A stretch of DNA of 60,742 bases from an uncultured Flavobacteriales bacterium (GTDB taxonomy: Bacteria; Bacteroidota; Bacteroidia; Flavobacteriales_D; Crocinitomicaceae). The stretch lies in the NCBI GenBank assembly GCA_913051935.1, contig CAJXCU010000007.1:1-60742 (forward strand). Reading direction: 5' to 3'. This document shows positions 5,156-48,142 of this stretch, in pieces. Position 1 is the stretch's first letter. Every line of letters begins with the position of its first letter. Under the pieces are notes generated by a model, which did not search any database, was not told the origin of the DNA, and saw nothing but the letters and a program-made list of their open reading frames with translations. Made by a program: the position numbers and the translations under genes.

Positions 5156-5782
5156 ATGGATATTTTAAAACTTACGTTTCAATTAGGAGTTTTCTTTGCG
5201 ATTTACAGCTTTATTTGGTTTTTTATTGAATTTGGATTTAAAATAATGACCTCAGGTCTTGTAACAGGTATTCTACACAACTATTTAATCAAAGCAATCA
5301 AATATCTTTTTTTGGTAAATGTTATTTTTCTTTTCGCTACGGGCGAAAACGAAACTACCGTAATTGATAAAAAATCATTAATCCCCGTATTTTTTATTTT
5401 ACTCCTCTATTTCTTAGGGAAGTTTCAAAAGAATCAAAACACCAATGCTTTGTTTTCACGAATGGGCGTTCAGTCACCAAAAGTCCAATTCAATGCCCGT
5501 TATGAGGTGATATTGATTTCACTATCCTTTTTGGCATTTGGCTTTTTAGTTTTTGAGCCAAATGTTGCCAATAATGCCATTGCAAGGTGGTTTAAAGAGA
5601 GTATTATTGATATTGAGTCAACAGCGATTATTGGTTTTATATTTAAAGTGATAGGCTTCTTCTTTCTTCTCAATATTTTAACCAAGACAATTAATTCCTT
5701 TCAATACATAATTAGTAAGCTGACTTCAGTTAAATCTGGTCATAGTCAGGATCAATTTGATGATTTTGAAGAGGTAGAATAA
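5156..5782 (+). CDS. Conserved multi-pass membrane protein, unknown function
   Basis: 208 residues with about five hydrophobic segments (near residues 5-30, 44-62, 75-90, 118-136 and 155-182) and an acidic, polar C-terminal tail (DQFDDFEEVE). I do not recognise a characterised family. It lies just upstream of rnpA, 27 nt from the chosen rnpA start, so the two may be cotranscribed. The ATG at 5156 directly precedes the first hydrophobic segment and no earlier in-frame start looks better. The 104-nt gap upstream contains a perfect 10-bp palindrome (ATAACGTTAT at 5098-5107) and TACCTTTA at about 5114, which resembles a weak -7 box. Confidence 0.75.
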   Translation: MDILKLTFQLGVFFAIYSFIWFFIEFGFKIMTSGLVTGILHNYLIKAIKYLFLVNVIFLFATGENETTVIDKKSLIPVFFILLLYFLGKFQKNQNTNALFSRMGVQSPKVQFNARYEVILISLSFLAFGFLVFEPNVANNAIARWFKESIIDIESTAIIGFIFKVIGFFFLLNILTKTINSFQYIISKLTSVKSGHSQDQFDDFEEVE

Positions 5783-32680: not shown

Positions 32681-32702
32681 AAAAAAGGCCTATCGGCCTT
32701 TT
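32681..32702 (-). terminator. Rho-independent terminator embedding a stop codon
   Basis: On the - strand an 8-bp stem (AAAAGGCC / GGCCTTTT) with loop GATA is followed by further T residues, giving a T6 run. The TAG stop of the 1232-residue protein (32692-32690) lies at the loop and 3' arm. Confidence 0.75.
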
Positions 32703-35700
32703 CCTTTTTCGGTATTTTTGAGCGGAGTTTTGGGTGGTGCAGGAACCTCTTTTTCCTTTTTGGATTTTTCTTTATTCCCAGAACTCGTATTTGATTTCGG
32801 CTGACCCCCTGTTGGCCTTTGTTTTGTGGTGCTTTTCTTTACGTTGTTACTTTCTTTCTTTTCGGCGCTAGCTTTTGGGTTCTTATTTTTAGAGCCTGAA
32901 TTACGGTTACTTGGTATATTTCCTTTATTGCTATTAATAGTCTTTCCATTGTTTATCTTCTCAATGTTCCCGCCATTATTACCCGGGTTTTGAGGAGCCT
33001 CAATGGTTGGATTGTAAATAACGGTGATATTAGAATTTGCCACACCACATGTGTTTTGAATTCTGATCGCAAAGACGTTATTTCCCGGGATTAAATTAAC
33101 AGTAGCACTTAGCAGTTCTGTATTGCTATTGTAGCTGAAGGGTATTTCTGCACCATTGAAGGCAAGCCGTATATTTGATTCTTCAAGTGCATTATTTGCC
33201 ATTGCTTGAAGCGTAAAGCTTTCTGATGTTACTACAGTATTTACAAGTGCTGGATTGATCCAATTTACTGATGGATTCTTGCATCTTAAAATTGAAATCG
33301 TCTCTGCATCCGAGCCACAAGGACTTACCGCATAAATGGATATGGTATTCATTCCGTTGGCTAGGGGAATATTGGCAGTTACCGTACCGTTTGTCATTTG
33401 AAAATAGGAGTTTGCAATGCTATGACCGTTAACCGAAATTGTCATAGTTGTACCCGCGGCGTAATTATTAATCATGGCAGTCAAAGGAACTGAGGATGTC
33501 ATTATTACAGAAGGAATTGAGCTAGGGTCCAATGAAATTTCAGGGACTAGACAAGGCTCATAATTGATTGAAATATTTTCGGTATCCTCTCCACACGGGT
33601 TTTTCGCGTTTATGACAATAGTATTCATACCGTCTATAAGAATAACTAGGGTCTTAATAATTCCGTTATTAAATGCAAAAGGGATAGACAAGCCATTATT
33701 TAAGACGGTAATTTGCCCTGCATCATTTATATTCGAGAGTTTAGCAATGATCTGAACCTTTTGTGAGTTGCTTTCAGTCGCATTGTTATTTGGAACTTTA
33801 AGGGTTATGGTAGGTGGTTCACAATCGTCATAAACAATAGTTAAATTCTGACTTGTTTCCCCACATGGTGTATTTACAATAATATTGAAGCTGTTTAATC
33901 CTGGACGAAGTAAGACATTGCTTGATACTTTGCCCTTGTCAAATGAAAAATTAATGTTATTTCCATTGTGCTTTATAGATATTTCATTGGCTAGATTGAC
34001 ATTACTCAAGTTTGCCATTATTGTATATAAAGAGTTACTAACAGTAATATCAGTTGCTCCGTTGGAAGATCCAGGACTTGTGATTGAAACTACAGGGTCT
34101 TTACAGTCGTTGTATATTACATGGAGTGTTTCTATCGCTGTTCCGCAATCGTTTGAGGCATTTATGGTAAAGTAGTTGTCACCCGGTGCGAGCGTTATAT
34201 TACCTGACAAAGTATTGTTTTGGGTATTGAATGCCATTCCCGTAATGCCCTGTCCATTTAACATGTACGAAATATTTTGTGCTCCTAATATTTCATTTAT
34301 TGTAATGTTTAAACCTAAACTCTGTTGGGCTGTAATCAGTCCTGTTTGAGCCCCATTAAATATGATGGAAGGAGCGTTACAATTTTCCAGATTAATTGTA
34401 AATTCCTCTGAATCGGAACCACAATCATTTTGTACTTGGACTGAAAAATTATTGATACCTGGGGATAGCGAAACGGAAAAGCTTAACAACTGATTTAAGA
34501 AGGATGCTGCTGAGATTTCCATCAATTTTCCATTTAGCTTTATTTTGATATTGTTTTTGGAAATGTCTGTTCCTGTTATTTGAATGTCAATATTTTGGCT
34601 TTGGTTGTTGGTTGTTGCTCCTGACGCTGAAGGATGAATCAACTCAATAAATGGTGTTTCGCATTGATTGTAGAAGATCGTGTTGGTAATTGTTCCTTGA
34701 CCACAGTCATTGGCAAAGTCTATCCGAATTACATTTTGGCCCGGCTCTAGGGATAAGGTGCTTTGTAAGAGCCCGGTCGTTGCATTAAAATTAAATCCAA
34801 AGACTTGGCTGTTATTTACAAATAGGCGCAACATTGATGGGTCTGAGATTTCAAGTATTCTTGCTTGTATCAAAAAGCTAGATGATTCGACGTTTAAGTT
34901 TGTTGCAGGACTAATGAAAACTCCGGATGGCTGAGTACAATTTGTATATTGGATGTTCAATCGTTCGGTGTCACTGCCACAATTATTAGCACCAGAGATA
35001 AAAAACGTGTTGCTTCCTTCATTCAAAGTAACCGTAGCTGAAAGTACATTTGAATTTGGGTTATAATTAAACAATAACGGAACTTGATTTATGTCTGTGA
35101 AGCTGATTTCAGAGGCACTGTTTATATTTAAAATTTGCGCACTTATGGATAATACTCCTTGATTTACCTCAACATTGCTGGCATTTAAAATATTTACGAC
35201 AGGTGGTGGGCATCCTGTAAAACCTGAAGACGAGCTTGTGGTGTTTTGGATATTTAAACGCTCTATGTCACTACCGCAGTTTGTTGTGGCTTTCAGTATG
35301 AATGTATTGTTCCCAGGTGCCAAGGAAACCGTCGCAGTCAGATTATTTGTATTCACATCATAATCAAAAGGAAGAGGCATATTGTTTTTATCTGAAAGCT
35401 CTATTTCGCTTACATTATTGACATTCGTCAATTTCGCATTTATTATTAAAGTACCTTGACTTGAAGTAGTGTTATTGGCGTTTAGAATATCAATAATAGG
35501 TGTTGGGCAGCTTGAAAAATCAGCTACAGATGATGGTGGCTTTGGTTTAGGTCGCTGTGGACGTGTGTGATTAGAGTTACCAAGTCTAAATCTTACAAAA
35601 GCTGAGGTATAGTGGTATAAATCATTTTCTAGTCGCGGTACTTCTGATAGGTAACCATCAAATTGATCTCCACGTGTGAAAGTTGTTTTATGCTCCAAAC

Positions 35701-36388
35701 CAATGGATGTATTGCCAAAATCATATGCTAGACCAAAGCCTAAGCTCGGCATGAAGAATTTTTGTTGATCAATAAGGTTTGTTTCAAATTCAAAGTCCAA
35801 ATCATTGTTCAGCATCTGATCCTCAGAGTATATCAAAATATTACCATTTTCATCAAGCGTTGTCAAGTCTCCCATGATTGATTTCCATGAAAAACCTAGC
35901 CCTCCGAAAACATATGGGTCTACGCCTGTTTTTTCGCGCAGCCTATTCAGATGGATAACCAATTCAAAGCTCAAACGATCTAATTTGGTATAATAATTAG
36001 GGATAAGTCCACCGTAAGCACTGTTGTAATCGTCGTAGATTGATTGTGCATCCGTGTTTATGGCGGTAATAGATGAGTCTAGCTCTGTACCTTGCCCATA
36101 CCAGTGGCCGCGAAGGTACCTTCCTCTTAGATCAAAACTCAACACTTTGCCATATTCATAATTATAGGACTTACCTAGAAATAAGCTCCATCCAGATGGG
36201 CTCGTAGACCTTAATGTTTCTAATTGGGGCTCTCTGAGCTCCCATGCATTAGCAATATCGGAACTACTCCATGTTGCTCCGTAGTTAAATCCAATAAACC
36301 ATTTGGATTCATAATTATTTTTATTTTTCTGTCCGTGGATGCTTCCAAGGAAGAATAAGGTGAATATAAGAAGGTATAATTTTTTCAT
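32690..36388 (-). CDS. Outer-membrane barrel-like protein with nine Ig-like repeats and a Lys-rich tail
   Basis: 1232 residues. Signal peptide MKKLYLLIFTLFFLGSIHG. Residues ~25-290 resemble an outer-membrane beta-barrel or porin-like domain (WFIGFNYGATWSSSDIANAW, LSFDLRGRYLRG, YHYTSAFVRFRLGN). Nine tandem ~85-residue repeats follow (about 290-1110). Each starts with a Cys in a (C)xxPxI/V segment, has a PFxxNxxT-like strand and LxPGxNxF, and ends at (N/P)CG(S/E)D. The paired Cys suggest a disulfide per repeat. The last ~110 residues are Asn/Lys/Ser-rich and strongly basic with VPAPPKTPLK. I do not know a characterised homologue. The repeats look like Ig/cadherin-type adhesive modules. No T9SS sorting domain is visible. 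Confidence 0.78.
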   Translation of the reverse strand: MKKLYLLIFTLFFLGSIHGQKNKNNYESKWFIGFNYGATWSSSDIANAWELREPQLETLRSTSPSGWSLFLGKSYNYEYGKVLSFDLRGRYLRGHWYGQGTELDSSITAINTDAQSIYDDYNSAYGGLIPNYYTKLDRLSFELVIHLNRLREKTGVDPYVFGGLGFSWKSIMGDLTTLDENGNILIYSEDQMLNNDLDFEFETNLIDQQKFFMPSLGFGLAYDFGNTSIGLEHKTTFTRGDQFDGYLSEVPRLENDLYHYTSAFVRFRLGNSNHTRPQRPKPKPPSSVADFSSCPTPIIDILNANNTTSSQGTLIINAKLTNVNNVSEIELSDKNNMPLPFDYDVNTNNLTATVSLAPGNNTFILKATTNCGSDIERLNIQNTTSSSSGFTGCPPPVVNILNASNVEVNQGVLSISAQILNINSASEISFTDINQVPLLFNYNPNSNVLSATVTLNEGSNTFFISGANNCGSDTERLNIQYTNCTQPSGVFISPATNLNVESSSFLIQARILEISDPSMLRLFVNNSQVFGFNFNATTGLLQSTLSLEPGQNVIRIDFANDCGQGTITNTIFYNQCETPFIELIHPSASGATTNNQSQNIDIQITGTDISKNNIKIKLNGKLMEISAASFLNQLLSFSVSLSPGINNFSVQVQNDCGSDSEEFTINLENCNAPSIIFNGAQTGLITAQQSLGLNITINEILGAQNISYMLNGQGITGMAFNTQNNTLSGNITLAPGDNYFTINASNDCGTAIETLHVIYNDCKDPVVSITSPGSSNGATDITVSNSLYTIMANLSNVNLANEISIKHNGNNINFSFDKGKVSSNVLLRPGLNSFNIIVNTPCGETSQNLTIVYDDCEPPTITLKVPNNNATESNSQKVQIIAKLSNINDAGQITVLNNGLSIPFAFNNGIIKTLVILIDGMNTIVINAKNPCGEDTENISINYEPCLVPEISLDPSSIPSVIMTSSVPLTAMINNYAAGTTMTISVNGHSIANSYFQMTNGTVTANIPLANGMNTISIYAVSPCGSDAETISILRCKNPSVNWINPALVNTVVTSESFTLQAMANNALEESNIRLAFNGAEIPFSYNSNTELLSATVNLIPGNNVFAIRIQNTCGVANSNITVIYNPTIEAPQNPGNNGGNIEKINNGKTINSNKGNIPSNRNSGSKNKNPKASAEKKESNNVKKSTTKQRPTGGQPKSNTSSGNKEKSKKEKEVPAPPKTPLKNTEKGKGR

Positions 36389-38971: not shown

Positions 38972-39039
38972 GTGCAGTTCTCTACTTTTTGAAGAATATT
39001 GAGATAAATAATAAGGGAATAAAATATTACATTTGGTTC

Positions 39040-39789
39040 ATGATTTTAAAGCTGAACCAAAGGGAATTTATCGACACTTCAAAACCAATAGATTTGTCTA
39101 TAGAACTTAAAGCGCAGGAACATAGCCTCAAGGCCTGGGGACAAGGTGATCCGAAGATAGAACCGGTTCGGGATGATGATTTTGTAGGAAGTGTTGCAGA
39201 GGGAGGGGTTGTTAACTTTAAAAATATTTTCTTTAACCCGCATGCTCACTTAACACATACGGAGTGTTGTGGGCATATTACAAAAGAATTTTATTCCGTA
39301 AATGACAGTTTGAGCAGGTACTTTTTTAATGCTCAACTCGTTAGTATTGAGCCTGAAAAAATTAATAATGATTCAGTTATAACTTTAGAACAAGTTCGTA
39401 ACCTAGACATTGATGTAAATACTGAGGCAATCATAATAAGAACTCTACCAAACAGTTCATCCAAAAAGACGTTTACTTACACTGGAACAAATCCACCCTA
39501 TATTGATGGAAATGTTGCACAATATCTCATTGATCAAGGTGTCGATCATATTTTAGTAGACCTTCCGTCTGTTGATAAGGAGCAAGATAACGGTATACTT
39601 GCTTTTCATCATGCTTTCTGGAATGTTCCTTTAAATCCAAATACGACGAGAACAATTACCGAATTTATTTTCATTTCGTCAGATATCGAGGATGGAACCT
39701 ATATTCTTAATTTACAAATGGGCGCCTTTTGTAACGATGCTAGTCCAAGTAGACCTGTATTGTATGCAAGGGAAGAAAAAAACATTTGA
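39040..39789 (+). CDS. Cyclase family (kynurenine-formamidase-like) hydrolase
   Basis: 249 residues from the ATG at 39040; an upstream TTG at 38989 would add 17 residues that overlap the glyQS promoter region and look non-coding. The start IDTSKPIDLSIEL and the metal-site region FFNPHAHLTHTECCGHI fit the cyclase/formamidase fold, where HxxxHxDxxxH ligates zinc; here the spacing is HxHLTHTExxGH, with Glu in place of the usual Asp. Later blocks AIIIRTLP, QYLIDQGVDHILVDLPSVD and LAFHHAFW fit the same fold. It is predicted cytoplasmic; the substrate is unknown, so a kynurenine role should not be assumed. The 3' end is next to the structured RNA region. Confidence 0.8.
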   Translation: MILKLNQREFIDTSKPIDLSIELKAQEHSLKAWGQGDPKIEPVRDDDFVGSVAEGGVVNFKNIFFNPHAHLTHTECCGHITKEFYSVNDSLSRYFFNAQLVSIEPEKINNDSVITLEQVRNLDIDVNTEAIIIRTLPNSSSKKTFTYTGTNPPYIDGNVAQYLIDQGVDHILVDLPSVDKEQDNGILAFHHAFWNVPLNPNTTRTITEFIFISSDIEDGTYILNLQMGAFCNDASPSRPVLYAREEKNI

Positions 39790-39806
39790 GCCAACCGGTT
39801 GGATAG

Positions 39807-39950
39807 TAAGGACAGGGCTTCTCACACAGATTGTCCGTAATGGACGTTTGCTAAAACTATTAAACTCTTATCATTAGATGATACAAATCAAGCTTCTCCA
39901 AGCAAGATTTGAAAAGTATTGCGTGAGAAGGGACCTGTTTATCCTTAATT
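39807..39950 (-). ncRNA. Structured RNA copy A (6S-like candidate)
   Basis: About 140 nt. Pairings in + strand coordinates: TAAGG 39807-39811 with CCTTA 39943-39947; ACAGG 39812-39816 with CCTGT 39934-39938; CTTCTCAC 39818-39825 with GTGAGAAG 39923-39930. Inside are two hairpins: GTCC/GGAC (39833-39836, 39842-39845), and a double stem, CAAATC/GATTTG plus GCTT/AAGC (39884-39911), closed by a CTCC loop (GGAG on the - strand). A 23-nt block at 39851-39873 is identical to copy B although the stems differ. The - strand is preferred because a TTG-N20-TATCTTTG promoter lies just upstream on that strand. A long closing stem, an internal bubble with a small 3' hairpin and a conserved AT-rich strand resemble 6S RNA. 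Strand and identity are inferences; the structure is directly visible. Confidence 0.72.
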
Positions 39951-39951
39951 A

Positions 39952-39982
39952 CAAAGATATGAAAAAAGCTTAAAACGCACAA
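39952..39982 (-). promoter_or_regulatory. Promoter of structured RNA copy A
   Basis: On the - strand TTG (39982-39980), 20 nt, then TATCTTTG (39959-39952): an exact Bacteroidota -33/-7 pair. The -7 box ends 2 nt before the first bases of RNA copy A (AATTAAGG). Confidence 0.6.
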
Positions 39983-39995
39983 TCTAATATAGATA
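39982..39995. promoter_or_regulatory. Palindromic element shared by both RNA copies (upstream of A)
   Basis: ATCTAATATAGATA, containing the inverted repeat ATCTA-ATA-TAGAT, overlaps the -33 region of copy A. The same 14 bases recur at 40247-40260 by copy B. It could be an operator or part of the promoters. Confidence 0.45.
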
Positions 39996-40047
39996 AAGGT
40001 GAATTCGGACAATGATTATACCCTCAATTGTGAGAAGTTATAGATAC

Positions 40048-40071
40048 AAAAAAAAGGCCTCGAAAGGCCTT
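40048..40071 (-). terminator. Rho-independent terminator between the two RNA copies
   Basis: Stem AAGGCCT / AGGCCTT with loop CGAA (TTCG on the - strand), followed on the - strand by a run of eight T residues (two of them in the stem). It lies 34 nt beyond the 3' end of copy B and could end copy B, or transcripts from the maeB-sprA-GNAT unit, before the copy A promoter. Confidence 0.75.
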
Positions 40072-40104
40072 CATATTGATTATTTGTGTTACTGCAAGTT
40101 TATT

Positions 40105-40243
40105 AATAAGGTACAGGAACTTCTCATGCAATGACCCTGGCGGGTCGACTAAAACTATTAAACTCTTATCAAACTAGAAATAAAACTGCTTCTCCAAGCA
40201 GTTCACTTTTCGCATAAGAAGTTGCCTGTGTCTCTCCTTATTT
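40105..40243 (-). ncRNA. Structured RNA copy B (6S-like candidate)
   Basis: About 139 nt, same architecture as copy A. AATAAGG 40105-40111 pairs with CCTTATT 40236-40242; ACAGG 40113-40117 with CCTGT 40225-40229; CTTCTCATGC 40120-40129 with GCATAAGAAG 40212-40221 (one mismatch). Internal hairpins are GACCC/GGGTC (40133-40137, 40142-40146, loop TGGC) and AACTGCTT/AAGCAGTT (40184-40203) with the same CTCC loop. Relative to copy A, several stems changed sequence but kept pairing. The 23-nt block at 40149-40171 is identical in both. On the - strand it is followed by a strong terminator at 40048-40071. Its own promoter is not clear: the equivalent -7 position reads TAGATACG and no TTG is seen at -33. 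Confidence 0.7.
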
Positions 40244-40246
40244 CGT

Positions 40247-40260
40247 ATCTAATATAGATA
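40247..40260. promoter_or_regulatory. Palindromic element shared by both RNA copies (next to B)
   Basis: The same 14 bases as at 39982-39995. Here the palindrome extends to 15 bases (TATCTA-ATA-TAGATA, 40246-40260) and lies 4 nt from the 5' end of copy B on the - strand. Confidence 0.45.
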
Positions 40261-40331
40261 GTTAGTGAGATTTCTTTGCGGTGTAATGAATATACAATAG
40301 TGAGGGTTGAAGATAATATCAGTTTGACTTA

Positions 40332-40790
40332 TTATTTGACATTATAGTCAAACTCAAGGCGTCCATTTAACCATGTCTTATTGAGTTGGGCATCTAGTTT
40401 TAAATAGAAGTCTATTGCAGGTTGATTCCAGTCATAGACTTGCCACTCCATTCTTCTTACTTTTTTTAATTGGGCAACTTCAGCTACTCTTTGGAACAAC
40501 TTTTTACCAACTCCTGATCGTCTCAATTCTGCTTTTACATATAAATCTTCGAGATAAAGGCACTTTCCTTTCCAAGTTGAGTAGGAGGTATAGTACAAGG
40601 CAAACCCGATAACTTGTTCGTTGTCAACGGCCACAATAGCCTCACATATTTGCTCAATGAATAAATGTGACCTAAGCTCTTCTGTTGTAATTTCAACGGC
40701 ATCAGGTTCTTTTTCATAAACTGCGAGCTCTTTTATTAATAAAAGAATATCTTTTTCATCCCCAAGAGTAGCCTTTCTAATTAAAATCAT
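40332..40790 (-). CDS. GNAT family N-acetyltransferase
   Basis: 152 residues. It starts with ILIRKATLGDEKDILLLIKEL and has the acetyl-CoA-binding segment LEDLYVKAELRRSGVGKKLF, then WQVYDWNQPAIDFYLKLDA, a pattern seen in the diamine/spermidine-like (SAT) subgroup of GNAT enzymes. It is predicted cytoplasmic. The ATG overlaps the sprA stop as ATGA, so the gene is probably translationally coupled to sprA. The substrate cannot be read from sequence. It is the last gene before the structured RNA region. Confidence 0.88.
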   Translation of the reverse strand: MILIRKATLGDEKDILLLIKELAVYEKEPDAVEITTEELRSHLFIEQICEAIVAVDNEQVIGFALYYTSYSTWKGKCLYLEDLYVKAELRRSGVGKKLFQRVAEVAQLKKVRRMEWQVYDWNQPAIDFYLKLDAQLNKTWLNGRLEFDYNVK

Positions 40791-43700
40791 TGTACCCCGG
40801 CTAAATTGAACCTTATTTTGAACCCAGTATTGATGTTTCCTGTCGGATAACTCGTTTGAACTTTCGGTGTATTGAGGTTTTGGTCGTAATAGAACATTAA
40901 AGTAAGGTTATTCGTAATGTTGTAATCTGCAGATATTTTGATGGCAATCGTTCTTTGTCCTGCTGTGGCTTGATTCGTATTTTCTACAATTTTTCTAATC
41001 ACTGTGAGATTGTCTCTAAATGAAAAATCAAATTTAATGTTAACATCACTTGACTTTATATTTCTAAATGGCAGCTTGACATCTTTAATCCGAGCAGCTG
41101 TCCCGATTACAATTTCCTCTGATAAGGACTCAGTAACTTGATTGTTACTAAGCGCTAGAGTGGCTTGTCGGTCTTTTTTATATTCAAATCTGGTTTGAAG
41201 GGTATGGCTTCCGATGATCCAGTTCGCGTCAATTCCAATTAATGGTGAGAAGCGTTCGCTGATGACGATATTTTGAATTTGCATTTCCGGAATATAGTTG
41301 TTATCAATATCCTGTGCTGTTAAATTACCTTGAGCATCCGATTCTGAATTCAGGTTGGTTTGCATTCCATTTAATGAAACGGTTGAGCTATATCCATGCC
41401 TCACAATAAATGACTTTAAAAACTTTTTTGTCCATTTATACTTTGTCAAGCCGCTATAGTTTACTGACCAGTTTGGAAGTGGTAAGCTTTGCATTGGATC
41501 AATATTTCGATCATTGATGGACGAATTGTTGAAGGCGGTCATGAAAGATCCCAAGACAACATCTTGCTGACTTCCGGAGTAACCAGAATAGTAGCCCCCG
41601 GGACTTGTAAGCGATGAATTCGAATTTTGACTTCCAATCAGTTGAGAAACTTCCTCTCTATTGTTCAATAAGGCATCAAAAACACTGGATTCATATTGCG
41701 CCCCTTGTTTGATAAATGAGGTCCCTAATGTAATTGTCGAATAGGTGAGGGTAGAGGTTTTAAATTGGCTTTGCCCTTCAAAAGCTTGAGCAGTCTCGTT
41801 CCAGCGATAAAATTCACCTGAATTGTCAGAATAATTTCTATTTAAATTCAAGTCAATATTTACATCTTTGAATGGCTCAAGTGTGGCTCTCATCGTAAGA
41901 TTTGCTGAGTGTGTCGTGGCATATTGCGTATTGAGGTTTTCATTTCGAATCAACCAATTATTTTCTGTTGCTAAATTTGAAATATTATAACCGTTGGACC
42001 TTCCAAAGATATCGTAGCCTTGTTGCCCAAATACAAAACCACTCAATTGTGAAGTTGTGCTATTCATCCCAAGAAACCTTGATTCCTCCCCATATCCCGG
42101 TAATATAGTACCGTCATTCAAGGCATATGTTCCTGAGATATTTCTTACCGTCATGATGATACGTGCAAAGAATCCTATTATTTTTGGGACTTTTCGTTTA
42201 GCCCTTTCTTCCTTTCGCACCTTGCGTTTGTGCGCTCTATTTTTTTTCTTGTAAGCTTTTAATTCCTCTTTATTCATTGAGTCAAGCGGCTGATCAGGTT
42301 CAAGGTCTTCCACGATGATCCATTCCCATTTTTTCTTCTCTTCGGTTTCGGTATTTTGCTCAGTCCCGCCGGAATTTCTACTTCCAGGACCGGATCTTGG
42401 ATTTAGTCTTCCCCGTGAATTTCTTCCATCGGATAGAATCTTTTTAAAGAAAGGAACTTTGTTGTATAGATTTACAAAGTTGGCTTGCGTGGTCATATTT
42501 ATATTTCTACTATTTTGGATCGTATTTCCAAAATCACTCTGTCCCAAAGGTGCTCTTGCCCAATTATATCCTCCGGTATACTTGATATTTGCATTGACCC
42601 AATTCGTTAAAGGGAATTTATTGAATGGTATTTTATAATTGATAGTGAAGTTTTGATTGTATTGCATTGTTTTTCCCAGAGTCGACATCTGTGAGCGAAT
42701 CGTGTCCAAAAACTCTTGGTATCCTTCAGGGTTTTCGTTCCTATCCACGCTATTGTTCCCTTCCTCAAAAATTGATTGATTGCGCGCACTAAATGTTGTT
42801 TTCAGGTTTCGTGTAATATCGTATCCTATTTCATATTTCCTGTTCCAGTCAAAACGTTTCAAGAAGATAGGATCAAACTCATAGTCAGGAACGAGGTTAT
42901 TTCTCACTTGACGTTCGTTATATATTCTAGAGTAGTCATTTGTGAAGGACATATTTTTCGGCATCAAAAACAGGTTGAAATCTTTGATTAGCTTTAGGTA
43001 TTTTGATTTTTGGACGGGTTTCCATTTTCTAAATGGTTGAAACGGTTTTCCTTTAAATGTGTAGTTATAATTTAGCGCACCGGTCCATGTTTTTGTTAGG
43101 TCCTTTTTTGTATTAAAGTCTCGTTGAAGGTTTTCTGCATAGGCGTAGCTCGCAGCCCAATTCGAAAGTCTCCAAAAATGATTTTTACTACCTGCTTTGG
43201 CCTCTTTTCTGACGTTGGTGAAATTAAATGATTTTCTTTCGTTGAAATCTTGACCGAGCTTCATCCTTTGTCGACGTGTTGCGTCATCGTAATCAGCAAG
43301 CTTTATATCCGGATTAAACGGATCATATTCAGGATTTACTACCCCAAGCGAGTAACCATAAAAGAAAGGGAGTGAAATACGTGCTTGCTTACCGAAAAAT
43401 TGTCCGAGTTGAAAGGTAGAATTCAAATCAAATCCAATTTGTTCGTTTCTCTGACGGTCTTGTACCCGGCTATCGACACTTCCCCAATTAATTCCAGAAT
43501 AATTTCCAGAGGCATTGATGTTTGCGAAATCAGCTAGTTTAAGTTGTAATTGACCTACTGCGGCAGAACCTCCTTCACTCACAAAATCTGTGAGCCTCAT
43601 TTCGTTGACCCAAACATTAACGCACTCTGCTTCTCCATCATCTGGTTGCCAAATATTATTCGGATCGTTTTTAAGTGGATTTCTCACTCCAATCATAATT

Positions 43701-46700
43701 GTTCTTAATCCTTGAAGGTTTGGGCTTCCTTTTACTTTAATTCTTCGTTCGTTGTTTTTGGGATCAGTTTTGGAATATTCGACGATATATGATATTCCGC
43801 TTCCGCCTGATTCGACAATTGAATTCCTTTCTTTTTTTAAGTCAATTAGGTCGTCGAAAACAATTTCAATATCATTGGCTGTAGGCCAAGCATCATCGGC
43901 TCCATGGTTGTACCATTCTGAAACATCCATCGGAAGCTCATATTCATAGTAATTATCAACAAAGTCGGTTCCTAGTCTAACAAATAAAGTTAGCTCATGG
44001 TCTTCAAGGGTATTGGGAACTACCTCTTCGGCATGCACAAACATTTTAAGCTTTTTATAGGTACGTACATCAAATTGTACATTTCTATAAGCAGCCCGTG
44101 CATCCCCATCCTGAAGGTTACATATTTCAAGCACAAGCGACTGTTCATTCATCTGTCTTGCGTAGGGCTGAGATGGATCTACCTCTCGTTGAATTCCAGG
44201 AGGAACGCTATAATTGATGGGCTGTCTTTGCTCATTTTCTTGGATATTTACGGCCCCTATATTGAAGGTGGTTAAATTAGGATCTTGTTGAATACTTAAG
44301 CCCGGTTGGGTAAGGTCCTCCAAAAATCTCCTCCATTCTCCCCTTATGAGTTCTAACCTGGCAAAACGTATAACAACCTCCTCATCAAAGTTTTTTAAGA
44401 ACATACGCATGAATCGAATAGATCTGAAATCCTGAATCCCATTGATGCGTTTTTCATAGTCAGTAATCGGAACCTTGAATTGATACCACGTTTCTGTTTT
44501 ATTTCCATTTGTATAAACCTGCTTGTTGGTAATATAATTGCTGCCTTCTTGCATGTCATTTCGTCGAAGACTGACTTTATATTGGAAATAACTTTCTGTT
44601 TCCGAAAGGTTATTGTCTTGATTGATGTCCTCAATATCAGGCATATTTGTCGCTTGCGTAGGATATCCATCTGAATTTAGTGAAGTTGAAAATTCTATGG
44701 TCGGAGAATTTCCCTCCATTCCATTATATTCTTTATATCGTTCCAAAATATCCGCTTCTTCGCTATCGAAATTATCATCCAAATAATAGTTGTAATTGTC
44801 TCCGGAGGGATCGCCAATCATTTCGCCTTTCGTCCCTGGGGTCATGGTCGGGTGATTATTCACCCAAGAAAGATAATTCTGAAAAGCTATGGCTTCCTCG
44901 GTATCATCCCATCCATCTAATCCAACATCTTGATTAAGACGTGAAGCCGGGTCATTGTCAAATGCATTTACGACTACTTGTTGTGTCGATACACGAGCCC
45001 AATCTGTCGTATCAATATTATCATCAACAGACACTCCTTGGGGAGGGAGGCCATTTTCAAAACTTTTTCGTGAATCGGGAAGGACGTCCTCTGAGATATT
45101 ACCTAAATTAAAATAGATGTCTCCACCATTATGGAAAGCGTTGGTGTCAACACCTTCTGCGTCTTCATTGAAGGGGTCTAATACCCAAAATTGTATAAAT
45201 TCAATATTTGCAACTTCAAAATCATTGGTGGTTAAGCCACGCATAATTCCTCCCCATCGTTCCTCCGGGTTAACGAATTGACCGATGGAATCAACTGTAT
45301 TGGTTGTATCGTAATTGTACATTCCTCTCTCCTTAGGATAGTAAGCTAAATCTAAAACAGGAATGTTTTGAATTCCTCCATACGGTACATCTACGAGCGG
45401 GAAAATATCATTTTGGTTAACGAGTCTCATCCTACTGTCACTAGTGATTGCACCACCGTTGTCGAGAATATGCTGTGGAGTTAGTGAGGTACCACCACCA
45501 TTTAGAACGGGGTCAATAACATACCACGCAGTTTTTGCACGATTGTATCCTGCGGATAAATCTTTGTTGGTTGCCTCTGGAAAAAGGTCTGGTTGACCTT
45601 GCGGGATGGAGGCTAAGCGCCAAGCATTAATATTTCTGAGGTCAATCGCACTCTGCGCTGCTTCAAAGTCATCAATATAGGAGGTTCCTTCTTTGTCAAT
45701 GGCTTTTGGTTGACCAGGGATTAGATGTGCAAATTCTCCTGTAAAGGAGAGTGTAGACATTTGTTTGGTAGATATGACAGGGAGAAAGTCAACAAGTTTT
45801 GTTAAAAAAGGGACGTCTGTCCTTAGTGCGATATCCGCACCAATCACATTATTTTTAAATGGCTCACTTCCAAAATCAACCTTCTGCGTGACAGGTCGTT
45901 CCATCATTCTTACCCAGGTCGCACCTAATTTCAAACGGTCACTAAACCTGTATTGATATCGGCCCCCAACCATAGATCTTGCCTGGAATCCAAATACGGA
46001 GTTACTCTCAATAGAAATCTTTATGGGTGTATTTGACTCGAGAATTCCGGTATTTAGAATTTTAACTCGACCAAAAGCGTAATCAACAGTGTAATCAACT
46101 CCTTCTACAAGTCTTATTCCTCCTGCTGTAACTGAAACGGATCCTTCAGGGACTGACATTACGTTCAGCGGTATGTCAGAGGTAATAGAGGATTGATATT
46201 CTCCTTTAAAAACAAATCTATTTTTACTTGGAATTTGTTGTGCCGCGGTTTTTGTAGAATCATAAAGCTCATGAAACGCAATTTTATCTACAGTAATCCC
46301 TGGGATTCCTGCTTCAACAAGTTTACTCTCTAATGTCTTTCCGAATGGTTCAACTGTGGAAAAGAAGATGCGTCCATTTTTTTTATTGATGGTTCCACCG
46401 TTATCGATTTTATTTTGAATTTGATTAAATGGCGCAAAATCAAAAACACCATCAGAAAATGGTTGGTTATTTTGGTTGATTTTATCCATATCTATCAGTG
46501 TTACAATCTGCTTTTTATCAACACCGTCTAATGGAATAATTGGAAGTTCTACAGAAGTTTCAGGATTGTTGTATAAAACATCGATTTTGAAACCTAATTG
46601 GTCTACCTGATAAGCACCAATAGAATAAACATTTTTCATCATTAGATCCCAAATCTTATTGTTGGGGTTTGTGATGGTAGGCTTTAGTAATTTGAGAATG

Positions 46701-48142
46701 AGTGCATCTTGACCGGAAGATCCATCTGTCGAAAATTCACCTACTTGATACGTTTCTCCACGATAAGTATATTCATAGGCCACGGACAAAATCTCATCAT
46801 TATTCAAAGGGCTGTTTAGAGAAATATATCCAAGGAGCGCATTGTAGGTAAAATCGCTTGTTTCAAGTCTTCTTGCATTTTCAAGTTTCTCATATTCGAC
46901 GGCTTGCTCAAATGGCCCTGGACTCGAAAATTGAGAGCTTAGTGTGCTTACTGAATTTGCAAAACCTCTTATTGTAGGCTGGTTTGCCGCCCAATTATAC
47001 AAATCGTTGGCCTCATTTCTAGGAATGTCATTGACAGAATATCCACCTGGATTTCCTTGACAATTCTCTTGCTTTGCTTCTCCCAGATCTGAAAATGAAA
47101 TTACGTTTCTTGTGTTCTCAATGCTGTTGTTTCTATTGGTTACCCATACTTCAATACGCGTAATGTACATCGTAGAGCTTACTACAGGCAATGTGGACAT
47201 GGCTTCATCATAGTGTTGTTGATGGTAGAGATTTAGAAAGTAGTGTCTGTTTGCCTCGTAATTATCGGCACTGAGCTCGAATTCCTGAATTTGAGCTTTA
47301 CCACTTACATTGATTTCATTTCTCTGTCCTTTGGAGGAGGCTGCAATAAGATCAACCGTTGCGCGGCCGAATTTCAGCTGAGTCTTGGCACCAAATAAGG
47401 TTTGTGATCCTTGAATAAGAGAAGTGGGTAGGTCAAGAGCAACATTACCAAGTGCAATTTTTTGAAGAATCTGATCTTCATCTCCTGTATGCTCAAGTGT
47501 TGAAATATTTTCAAAATCGAAGGAAGCTTGGGTATTATATTTTGCGCCAATTTTCAATTTCGTACCAATTTGGCCAACAATATCCATATTGATATTTTGT
47601 TGAAAGTCAAATCTTGTAACTCTTCTTTGTCTCAATGGTAGCAATGGGTTGTCATATCTTGAGGAATTAACCCCTAGTGCAAGTTCAATATTTCCCTGTG
47701 GTTTTATCGTTATTTGGTCGGAGCCAAAAAAGTTTTCAAACGCCTTACTACCTATCTTTATTGGCAATTCAAAAGCTCTATTTTCTTCAGTTTCTTCTTC
47801 AATGATTTCCAGCCAATCTTGTGACATGGATTTTTCTCGTTTGAATTCTAAATACTCATCTAAGGTTAAAAACGACGGATTTCTGTAATTCAAGCCATTT
47901 CCCATTGTTTCAGAAAAAATATACGTCCCGGTGAGTGGGTCATATGATATATTTTGATTCAATGATGAGGGATCTCCTAGGTCAAAGCTCTGTGATTCAA
48001 CTTGAAAAGGATTTTGCGCATTATAAATTGGGAAGGGTAGTTGAATCGTATCATCCTGAGCGAAATACGACCAGCTTAAAATGTAAAATAGGAGCGAAAT
48101 GCCCCATTTTACTGATAGTCCATATGTTTTCCAAATGTTCAA
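40787..48142 (-). CDS. sprA: SprA, T9SS outer-membrane translocon / gliding motility protein
   Basis: 2451 residues, in the usual size range of SprA (Sov in Porphyromonas). SprA forms the giant outer-membrane beta-barrel through which T9SS cargo passes. The mature N terminus (PFPIYNAQNPFQVESQSFDL, SFLTLDEYLEFKREKSMSQD) and the region with FDFQQNINMDIVGQIGTKLK and GRVKILNTGIL match the SprA N-terminal domains; a long barrel region follows, ending in NINTGFKIRFNLAGVQ. The start is TTG: no ATG or GTG lies between the upstream in-frame TGA (48157-48155) and the signal peptide (WGISLLFYILSWSYFA), and the next Met would delete it. It lies 1 nt after ruvA. A charged insertion (about residues 1930-1990) is Lys/Glu-rich. 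Confidence 0.96.
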   Translation of the reverse strand: MNIWKTYGLSVKWGISLLFYILSWSYFAQDDTIQLPFPIYNAQNPFQVESQSFDLGDPSSLNQNISYDPLTGTYIFSETMGNGLNYRNPSFLTLDEYLEFKREKSMSQDWLEIIEEETEENRAFELPIKIGSKAFENFFGSDQITIKPQGNIELALGVNSSRYDNPLLPLRQRRVTRFDFQQNINMDIVGQIGTKLKIGAKYNTQASFDFENISTLEHTGDEDQILQKIALGNVALDLPTSLIQGSQTLFGAKTQLKFGRATVDLIAASSKGQRNEINVSGKAQIQEFELSADNYEANRHYFLNLYHQQHYDEAMSTLPVVSSTMYITRIEVWVTNRNNSIENTRNVISFSDLGEAKQENCQGNPGGYSVNDIPRNEANDLYNWAANQPTIRGFANSVSTLSSQFSSPGPFEQAVEYEKLENARRLETSDFTYNALLGYISLNSPLNNDEILSVAYEYTYRGETYQVGEFSTDGSSGQDALILKLLKPTITNPNNKIWDLMMKNVYSIGAYQVDQLGFKIDVLYNNPETSVELPIIPLDGVDKKQIVTLIDMDKINQNNQPFSDGVFDFAPFNQIQNKIDNGGTINKKNGRIFFSTVEPFGKTLESKLVEAGIPGITVDKIAFHELYDSTKTAAQQIPSKNRFVFKGEYQSSITSDIPLNVMSVPEGSVSVTAGGIRLVEGVDYTVDYAFGRVKILNTGILESNTPIKISIESNSVFGFQARSMVGGRYQYRFSDRLKLGATWVRMMERPVTQKVDFGSEPFKNNVIGADIALRTDVPFLTKLVDFLPVISTKQMSTLSFTGEFAHLIPGQPKAIDKEGTSYIDDFEAAQSAIDLRNINAWRLASIPQGQPDLFPEATNKDLSAGYNRAKTAWYVIDPVLNGGGTSLTPQHILDNGGAITSDSRMRLVNQNDIFPLVDVPYGGIQNIPVLDLAYYPKERGMYNYDTTNTVDSIGQFVNPEERWGGIMRGLTTNDFEVANIEFIQFWVLDPFNEDAEGVDTNAFHNGGDIYFNLGNISEDVLPDSRKSFENGLPPQGVSVDDNIDTTDWARVSTQQVVVNAFDNDPASRLNQDVGLDGWDDTEEAIAFQNYLSWVNNHPTMTPGTKGEMIGDPSGDNYNYYLDDNFDSEEADILERYKEYNGMEGNSPTIEFSTSLNSDGYPTQATNMPDIEDINQDNNLSETESYFQYKVSLRRNDMQEGSNYITNKQVYTNGNKTETWYQFKVPITDYEKRINGIQDFRSIRFMRMFLKNFDEEVVIRFARLELIRGEWRRFLEDLTQPGLSIQQDPNLTTFNIGAVNIQENEQRQPINYSVPPGIQREVDPSQPYARQMNEQSLVLEICNLQDGDARAAYRNVQFDVRTYKKLKMFVHAEEVVPNTLEDHELTLFVRLGTDFVDNYYEYELPMDVSEWYNHGADDAWPTANDIEIVFDDLIDLKKERNSIVESGGSGISYIVEYSKTDPKNNERRIKVKGSPNLQGLRTIMIGVRNPLKNDPNNIWQPDDGEAECVNVWVNEMRLTDFVSEGGSAAVGQLQLKLADFANINASGNYSGINWGSVDSRVQDRQRNEQIGFDLNSTFQLGQFFGKQARISLPFFYGYSLGVVNPEYDPFNPDIKLADYDDATRRQRMKLGQDFNERKSFNFTNVRKEAKAGSKNHFWRLSNWAASYAYAENLQRDFNTKKDLTKTWTGALNYNYTFKGKPFQPFRKWKPVQKSKYLKLIKDFNLFLMPKNMSFTNDYSRIYNERQVRNNLVPDYEFDPIFLKRFDWNRKYEIGYDITRNLKTTFSARNQSIFEEGNNSVDRNENPEGYQEFLDTIRSQMSTLGKTMQYNQNFTINYKIPFNKFPLTNWVNANIKYTGGYNWARAPLGQSDFGNTIQNSRNINMTTQANFVNLYNKVPFFKKILSDGRNSRGRLNPRSGPGSRNSGGTEQNTETEEKKKWEWIIVEDLEPDQPLDSMNKEELKAYKKKNRAHKRKVRKEERAKRKVPKIIGFFARIIMTVRNISGTYALNDGTILPGYGEESRFLGMNSTTSQLSGFVFGQQGYDIFGRSNGYNISNLATENNWLIRNENLNTQYATTHSANLTMRATLEPFKDVNIDLNLNRNYSDNSGEFYRWNETAQAFEGQSQFKTSTLTYSTITLGTSFIKQGAQYESSVFDALLNNREEVSQLIGSQNSNSSLTSPGGYYSGYSGSQQDVVLGSFMTAFNNSSINDRNIDPMQSLPLPNWSVNYSGLTKYKWTKKFLKSFIVRHGYSSTVSLNGMQTNLNSESDAQGNLTAQDIDNNYIPEMQIQNIVISERFSPLIGIDANWIIGSHTLQTRFEYKKDRQATLALSNNQVTESLSEEIVIGTAARIKDVKLPFRNIKSSDVNIKFDFSFRDNLTVIRKIVENTNQATAGQRTIAIKISADYNITNNLTLMFYYDQNLNTPKVQTSYPTGNINTGFKIRFNLAGVQ

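Follow-up and report, generated by a model that had tools for sequence, protein, structure and literature searches.

What are the two structured segments that lie in tandem on the minus strand of a contig from an uncultured member of the Crocinitomicaceae (order Flavobacteriales), and what might they do? The stretch analysed, referred to here as the window, comprises 60,742 nt (nt 1–60742 of contig CAJXCU010000007.1, assembly GCA_913051935.1). An earlier note on this DNA had proposed a tandem pair of structured, covarying RNAs, each perhaps a gene with its own promoter, and had leaned towards a 6S-like role. In the current study the two segments, copies A and B, are found to be paralogues of a small-RNA family that is absent from Rfam and widespread in the Crocinitomicaceae, and the RNA is carried by nearly every genome of the window's genus. 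Taken together, the evidence is best explained by a regulatory RNA under the control of a LytTR two-component system, with an exposed block that probably pairs with mRNAs; we put the probability of this reading at roughly 0.6.

Copy B, which is of the main type, has a structured domain running from GAAATAAGGAG to CCTTATT (nt 40105–40244, minus strand), and copy A is a diverged tandem paralogue (nt 39806–39951, minus strand). Two covariance models were built, R1 from 11 sequences and R2 from 47. Copy B, itself one alignment row in each model, scores 126.9 bits with R1 (E 9e-29) and reaches E 8e-15 with R2. Copy A, which was left out when R1 was built, is recovered by R1 at 56.9 bits (E 7.1e-11), and as a DNA query it retrieves copy B in the source genome at E 6.1e-7. 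The minus-strand folds have z-scores of -5.3 (A) and -6.1 (B), with 0 of 200 shuffles as low; the plus-strand values are -4.0 and -5.9, respectively. The minus strand is the gene strand of both RNAs.

The earlier note had suggested searching Rfam, and also Bacteroidota genomes with a covariance model. In the window no Rfam gathering score was reached, the local stretch gave only chance-level matches under lax settings (the best being ceN27 at E 0.13), and the same was true of the loci of 10 relatives, so identity with an Rfam family was rejected. The covariance-model search was productive. Within the window's genus R1 detected the RNA in 80 of 86 genomes (48 of the 50 good ones), and across the order in 60 of 249 genomes, all from one family and representing 8 of 64 genera; 29 of the matching genomes lie outside the window's genus, in seven other genera. 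With R2, 10 of 395 genomes of the class matched, all of them Crocinitomicaceae. Both models were run with strict filters and their E-values are rough; absences in these searches are soft because such filters lose weak matches. When copy A served as a DNA query with a threshold of E 0.1, 46 of 150 family genomes gave matches; many of the weak ones are due to chance. The literature searched, mostly outside subscription journals (PMC2864571 included), yielded no account of this RNA or of any LytTR-controlled RNA in Bacteroidota.

The anatomy of the RNA was read from 47 chosen representatives, copy B, added by hand, among them; a further 47 matches lacking a recognised 3' end were left unlisted. 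Invariant or nearly so across this alignment are the 5' GAAATAAGGAG, a CAGG paired with CCTG, the hairpin CTGC..TTGGAGAG..GCAG, and the block TTTCATTTTCTAGTTTGAT, which is followed by AAGAGTATAACAGTTCTT in most copies with a long 5' arm (long type, see below) and by AAGAGTTTAATAGTTTT in the window's genus. The hairpin, P5, reads CTGCTT-GGAG-AAGCAG in copy B (nt 40186–40201), its outer four pairs being invariant in 47 of 47 aligned sequences, and GCTT-GGAG-AAGC in copy A (nt 39892–39903). It is adjoined, in the distal domain, by the unpaired block, which in copy B (TTTTATTTCTAGTTTGATAA, nt 40166–40185) is the family's invariant region. The identical 23-nt block that the earlier note had described is indeed present in both copies (nt 40149–40171 in B and 39851–39873 in A), but it is merely the portion common to the two, and B retains more of the invariant block. 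A diverged copy in another genome (G127:C1:22012-22148, locus L013) has lost the GGAG loop (CTGCA-AAATGA-TGCAG) and kept part of the block.

Around these invariant elements the rod varies, and its pairing is kept through compensatory changes. Among the 47 relatives, 9 of 22 pairs are changed on both sides, the covariation score is 0.248 (0.100 +/- 0.008 in shuffles), and 106 cells are changed on both sides (42.5 +/- 4.0 in shuffles). Paired cells make up 94.9% of the total, compared to 41–55% in a slid control, which is the stronger of the two controls, though it favours a structure drawn, as here, from the alignment under test. In the genus alignment of 11 relatives, 9 of 41 pairs are changed on both sides. 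None of these figures is a probability, since the shuffles retain shared ancestry, and the helices within the invariant core hardly vary and have no covariation support. With folds that beat their shuffles and compensatory pairing in relatives, the view of A and B as structured RNAs rather than a decaying repeat is upheld.

The copies also have likely gene boundaries, for which only exact duplicates were removed before counting. The -7 promoter consensus, also used in the earlier note, is TAnnTTTG, and an element with at least five of its six defined letters precedes 114 of 122 main-type copies, compared to 33 of 122 shuffled sequences. In copy B this is TATATTAG (nt 40249–40256, minus strand; 5/6), and the exact element that had been claimed before copy A is there (TATCTTTG, nt 39959–39952; 6/6). 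The predicted 5' end of the RNA lies at GAAATAAGG. An intrinsic terminator follows 106 of 113 copies (1.8% of shuffles); the one expected after copy B was likewise found, as a stem at nt 40072–40053 with a T run behind it, within a 3' tail and terminator region spanning nt 40046–40104 (minus strand). The median predicted transcript is 210 nt for the short type and 285 nt for the long type. In 112 of 113 copies each of the three forward frames of the core is interrupted by stops, and for these frames a coding RNA was rejected.

What could control such an RNA was suggested by relatives, the linkage described here and the 21-bp repeats described below being invisible from the window alone. A pattern scan of named genomes returned at least 119 stretches, and 125 sites were listed from them; these are copies rather than genomes, one contig gave two stretches, and all counts are among the matches listed. 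They were divided by length of the 5' arm into a long type, assigned to other genera, and a short type, assigned to the window's genus, both assignments being extrapolated from loci of known kinship. Eleven sites without a recognised 5' end were counted apart, and at least two of these look like chance matches (L159, labelled Mycoplasmataceae, and L169, labelled Paenibacillus). By Pfam domains, 56 of the 125 sites have a LytTR response regulator gene directly upstream and in the same orientation, preceded in 52 by a TPR histidine kinase. By type, the regulator is directly upstream of 51 of 57 long-type copies and of 5 of the 11 whose 5' end was not recognised. Of the 51 linked long-type copies, 46 begin 93–99 nt from the regulator's stop codon.

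Downstream, 90 of the 125 sites (36 of 57 long-type and 48 of 57 short-type) have a convergent cyclase gene as their nearest neighbour, and a GNAT gene is the upstream neighbour in 28. Both copies in the window sit in just this setting, between a putative cyclase gene (PF04199, Pfam; nt 38989–39789, plus strand), which is the conserved, convergent neighbour, and a GNAT acetyltransferase gene (Pfam; nt 40332–40790, minus strand) upstream of B. The regulator has a relative at E 1e-45 or better in 35 of 37 searched genomes of the window's genus. In the source genome this relative (G000:C14:18473-19213, 67% identity) is on another contig than the RNA, and the kinase-regulator pair is intact and unlinked to it; in five inspected stretches of the genus the relative is likewise still behind the kinase, away from the RNA. 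The nearest regulator relatives outside the family, several of which may be paralogues, were inspected in 10 stretches, and no RNA was seen by eye in the downstream gaps. Since it usually follows a sensor-regulator pair in related genera, the RNA looks like the output of a sensing system, and the arrangement of these genes suggests that the pair probably switches the RNA on.

The upstream regions support such control. After removal of near-identical ones, 96 of 100 contain a TATTCATT-like site (at least 7 of 8 letters; 10.6% in shuffled sequences), and the top-scoring partner site stands at exactly 21 bp in 89 of the 100, despite a tie-break that favoured 22. The repeat profile of these regions shows a third period. 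When the two repeats are scored as a pair, 118 of 122 main-type copies attain a score of 12 or more out of 16, compared to 4 of 122 shuffled ones, and copies away from the regulator (those of the window's genus, the Taishania-type L088, L167 and L211) retain the repeats. In copy B the proximal putative LytTR site is TATTCATT (nt 40285–40292), the second, degenerate and 21 bp upstream of the first, is TCTTCAAC (nt 40306–40313), and a possible weak third site, TAATAAGT (nt 40327–40334), lies 21 bp further upstream and overlaps the end of the GNAT gene (all minus strand). LytTR repeats, according to one published account, are 9-mers with 11–13 bp, mostly 12, between them, and are therefore 21 bp apart from start to start in the common case; the repeat row given there for Bacteroides thetaiotaomicron contains the letters TATTCA (PMC6193735). 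A strict form of the repeat-pair pattern occurs in at least 75 of the 86 genus genomes among the matches listed, at the RNA in many and also scattered. One 29-mer with this pattern, TTTTCACAATTATGCGTAACTTGTTCATT, lies outside the RNA in at least five genus genomes, and could be coding sequence or belong to another regulated gene.

With the family, its structure, its likely gene boundaries, its linkage and its repeats established, the following mechanism can be proposed. A TPR histidine kinase and a LytTR response regulator would control the RNA, the regulator binding two or three direct repeats spaced by 21 bp at about -48, -69 and -90 from the RNA start and so activating a promoter with an imperfect -7 element. 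The transcript, of 210–285 nt, would end at its own intrinsic terminator and fold into the covarying rod, holding out the GGAG-loop hairpin and an invariant unpaired block of about 20 nt, and this exposed block would probably act on other genes through base pairing with their mRNAs. In the window's genus the RNA stands apart from the kinase-regulator operon with its sites kept, and part of the genus has it in several copies, the last tandem copy (A) being without the sites and without part of the block.

A number of observations weigh against this reading. Six of the 86 genus genomes, two of them good genomes, have no R1 match, and under the strict filters other genera of the family are without a match (e.g. 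G011 and G014, with R2). The regulator is adjacent in 0 of 57 short-type copies, the form found in the window, 8 of these having no upstream gene on the contig. The letters of TATTCATT differ from the usual LytTR consensus, and the repeats of B are degenerate and missed by the strict repeat-pair pattern; the latter matches two other places in the source genome and many scattered places in relatives, and thus is not specific to the RNA. We infer binding by the regulator from spacing and linkage only; transcription, activation and the pairing action are, like it, predicted from sequence rather than observed. Two of the five measures in the 47-relative covariation test are only modestly above shuffles: the number of changed pairs (9, compared to 7.5), which 25 of 500 shuffles reach, and that of further pair types, which 47 of 500 reach.

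The search for targets also belongs on this side of the balance. The block's complement looks like an A-rich start region, but of the 79 exact sites that a 13-mer of it has in the 86 genomes (57 genomes), 60 are the RNA itself, and no recurrent target emerged. The 19 others are scattered (12 sites for the reversed pattern), and two of them are in genomes without an R1 match and may be missed RNA copies. The start regions of neighbouring genes pair with the RNA at mean z-scores of -1.6 to +0.8, and none stands out. Finally, the block is equalled in invariance by the GGAG hairpin and the 5' GAAATAAGGAG, a degree of conservation beyond the needs of one pairing seed. Within the neighbour-gene test, the lowest mean z (-1.6) was that of cluster c11, a small acidic-protein gene that is second downstream (8 tested), which is a weak lead; the start regions of YHYH genes had a mean z of -1.0.

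The excess of invariant elements invites two other readings. The first would see in the RNA an independently arisen, RNAIII-like effector dedicated to a LytTR system of Bacteroidota, with the invariant elements jointly performing, in a manner so far undescribed, ribosome or protein capture and pairing, and with copy A having escaped the sensor to take up a new role; we offer this tentatively, as possible yet rather less than probable. It draws on a likeness to the agr system of Staphylococcus, in which a histidine kinase and a LytTR regulator act through direct repeats on an adjacent RNA output, P3/RNAIII, AgrA binding direct repeats upstream of P2 and P3 that are centred near -60 (PMC4227749). 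Here the linked kinase and regulator are found in 51 of 57 long-type copies and are unlinked in the short type, and the promoter is preceded by direct repeats with a spacing of about 21 bp in the proportions given above (89/100 upstream regions; 118/122 main-type copies). Unlike agr, the kinase here is of the TPR kind, the RNA lies behind the regulator on the same strand rather than divergent from the operon, and the phylum is another; moreover, RNAIII carries a small reading frame, whereas the forward frames of this RNA's core are closed. The two systems thus appear alike in logic, with no relation to RNAIII detected because there is no Rfam match.

The second keeps the LytTR-driven RNA and would have it hold a protein or the ribosome by means of the GGAG hairpin, a 5' AAGGAG and the unpaired block, in place of pairing with mRNA. 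In its favour, several separate elements (the 5' GAAATAAGGAG, the P5 loop and the block) are invariant together, a CTACTA motif is common between the rod and the terminator (in 43 of 51 tails of the long type and 20 of 43 of the short type, the window's copies, as read, being without it), and the block-complement and neighbour-gene tests brought up no mRNA target. That search was limited in extent, however, and CsrA, the known partner of GGA loops, is in 0 of 60 family genomes, with no other partner known; we consider this reading unlikely. A sponge for CsrA/RsmA was considered separately. RsmY and CsrB offer a parallel, as they are RNAs under two-component control (GacA/UvrY) and display a GGA motif in the loop of a hairpin, and the present RNA has such a loop; but its regulator is of the LytTR type, and with CsrA lacking in the 60 genomes (by a search that rings in 3 of 14 controls) a sponge is very unlikely.

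By comparison with these, and with the LytTR-driven, pairing RNA that we prefer, the 6S role suggested in the earlier note is not supported and has a slim chance. According to this proposal the RNA would serve the family as its 6S RNA, and its long rod would capture RNA polymerase by imitating an open promoter. It is a long rod, it is near-universal in the genus, and under strict filters 150 family genomes gave no match to 6S-Flavo (RF01685), itself a structured, independent RNA of Flavobacteriales. This last absence proves nothing either way, because the RF01685 model is insensitive (3 of 120 genomes in the order and 5 of 149 in the class, none over the cut-off) and no control rang in the 150-genome search. 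No 6S-type Rfam match was obtained for the window stretch (E 10) or the loci of 10 relatives (E 1), and membership of 6S-Flavo fails in the same way, with no covariance-model match and no evident sequence shared with the 6S-Flavo alignments. The promoter-like letters TAGTTTTAG, which had been taken for a promoter mimic, are not conserved among family copies, the long type having CAGTTCT or TAGTTCT and other copies of the genus often TAGTTTTTG; linkage to a LytTR operon is also unlike a housekeeping 6S RNA.

A cis-acting element, i.e. a 3' untranslated region or attenuator of the preceding operon, would account for the RNA directly following the regulator gene in 51 of 57 long-type sites. It is improbable to a still greater degree, as the RNA has its own promoter elements and terminator, its nearest downstream gene is the convergent cyclase gene in 90 of the 125 sites, and it stands behind unrelated genes in the window's genus and in several other contexts. 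A mobile repeat or attachment site, a match to which the earlier note had named as telling against an RNA, has a negligible chance: more than one copy is present in 12 of 86 genus genomes, but there is one copy in 68 of the 80 that bear the RNA, the neighbour is conserved, the pairing is compensatory, and no match was found in viral contigs (exact pattern) or in plasmids and phages (blastn).

Where the RNA is multiple, genomes of the genus have two to four copies. Array order was read in 12 hand-picked loci, representing 8 different arrays, and on the RNA strand 7 of the 8 have one or two B copies followed by A, as in the window; the remaining array (L208) has three B-like matches. As B resembles the single copies of other genomes, it is taken as the probable ancestral form. 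Copy A keeps the scaffold and the hairpin, and part of its block is replaced by a self-complementary stretch, TATCATCTAATGATA (nt 39869–39883, minus strand). Among A-type copies, 6 of 8 have a 6/6 element at -7, and 0 of 8 reach the repeat-pair score of 12 of 16. The tandem copies are a natural experiment, offering a similar scaffold with and without LytTR sites and the invariant block.

Little has been charted of the regulatory RNAs of Bacteroidota, or of the outputs of their many LytTR regulators. In the present case one kinase-regulator pair has a conserved RNA as its probable output, recognisable in at least 119 stretches from named records. Of the 80 listed, most are labelled Crocinitomicaceae, Fluviicola or Flavobacteriales, and the records of the cultured Fluviicola chungangensis MAH-3 and Taishania pollutisoli CZZ-1 hold the RNA. 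Because promoter elements, repeats and terminator are defined and cultured strains hold the RNA, the chain from sensor to regulator, RNA and target is directly testable in such strains. Another conserved, structured small RNA of the Flavobacteriales, Rfp18 of Flavobacterium psychrophilum, is predicted to pair with mRNA; compared by description only, it differs in that the accessible part of its text makes no mention of LytTR (PMC9723704).

Some database labels are at odds with this distribution. Record CP034120.1 (L129), titled Glaciecola amylolytica, has a long-type RNA at nt 5381–5554 with a kinase and LytTR regulator upstream, and its label is probably wrong. The RNA pattern also occurs in several metagenome-assembled genomes that bear the names Chitinophaga pinensis or Chryseobacterium gleum. 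Elsewhere in the window, a gene of 2451 aa beside the GNAT gene (nt 40787–48142, minus strand) encodes a protein that we take to resemble the gliding/type IX secretion protein SprA, and a protein of 1232 aa (nt 32690–36388, minus strand) has, by eye, several similar repeated segments.
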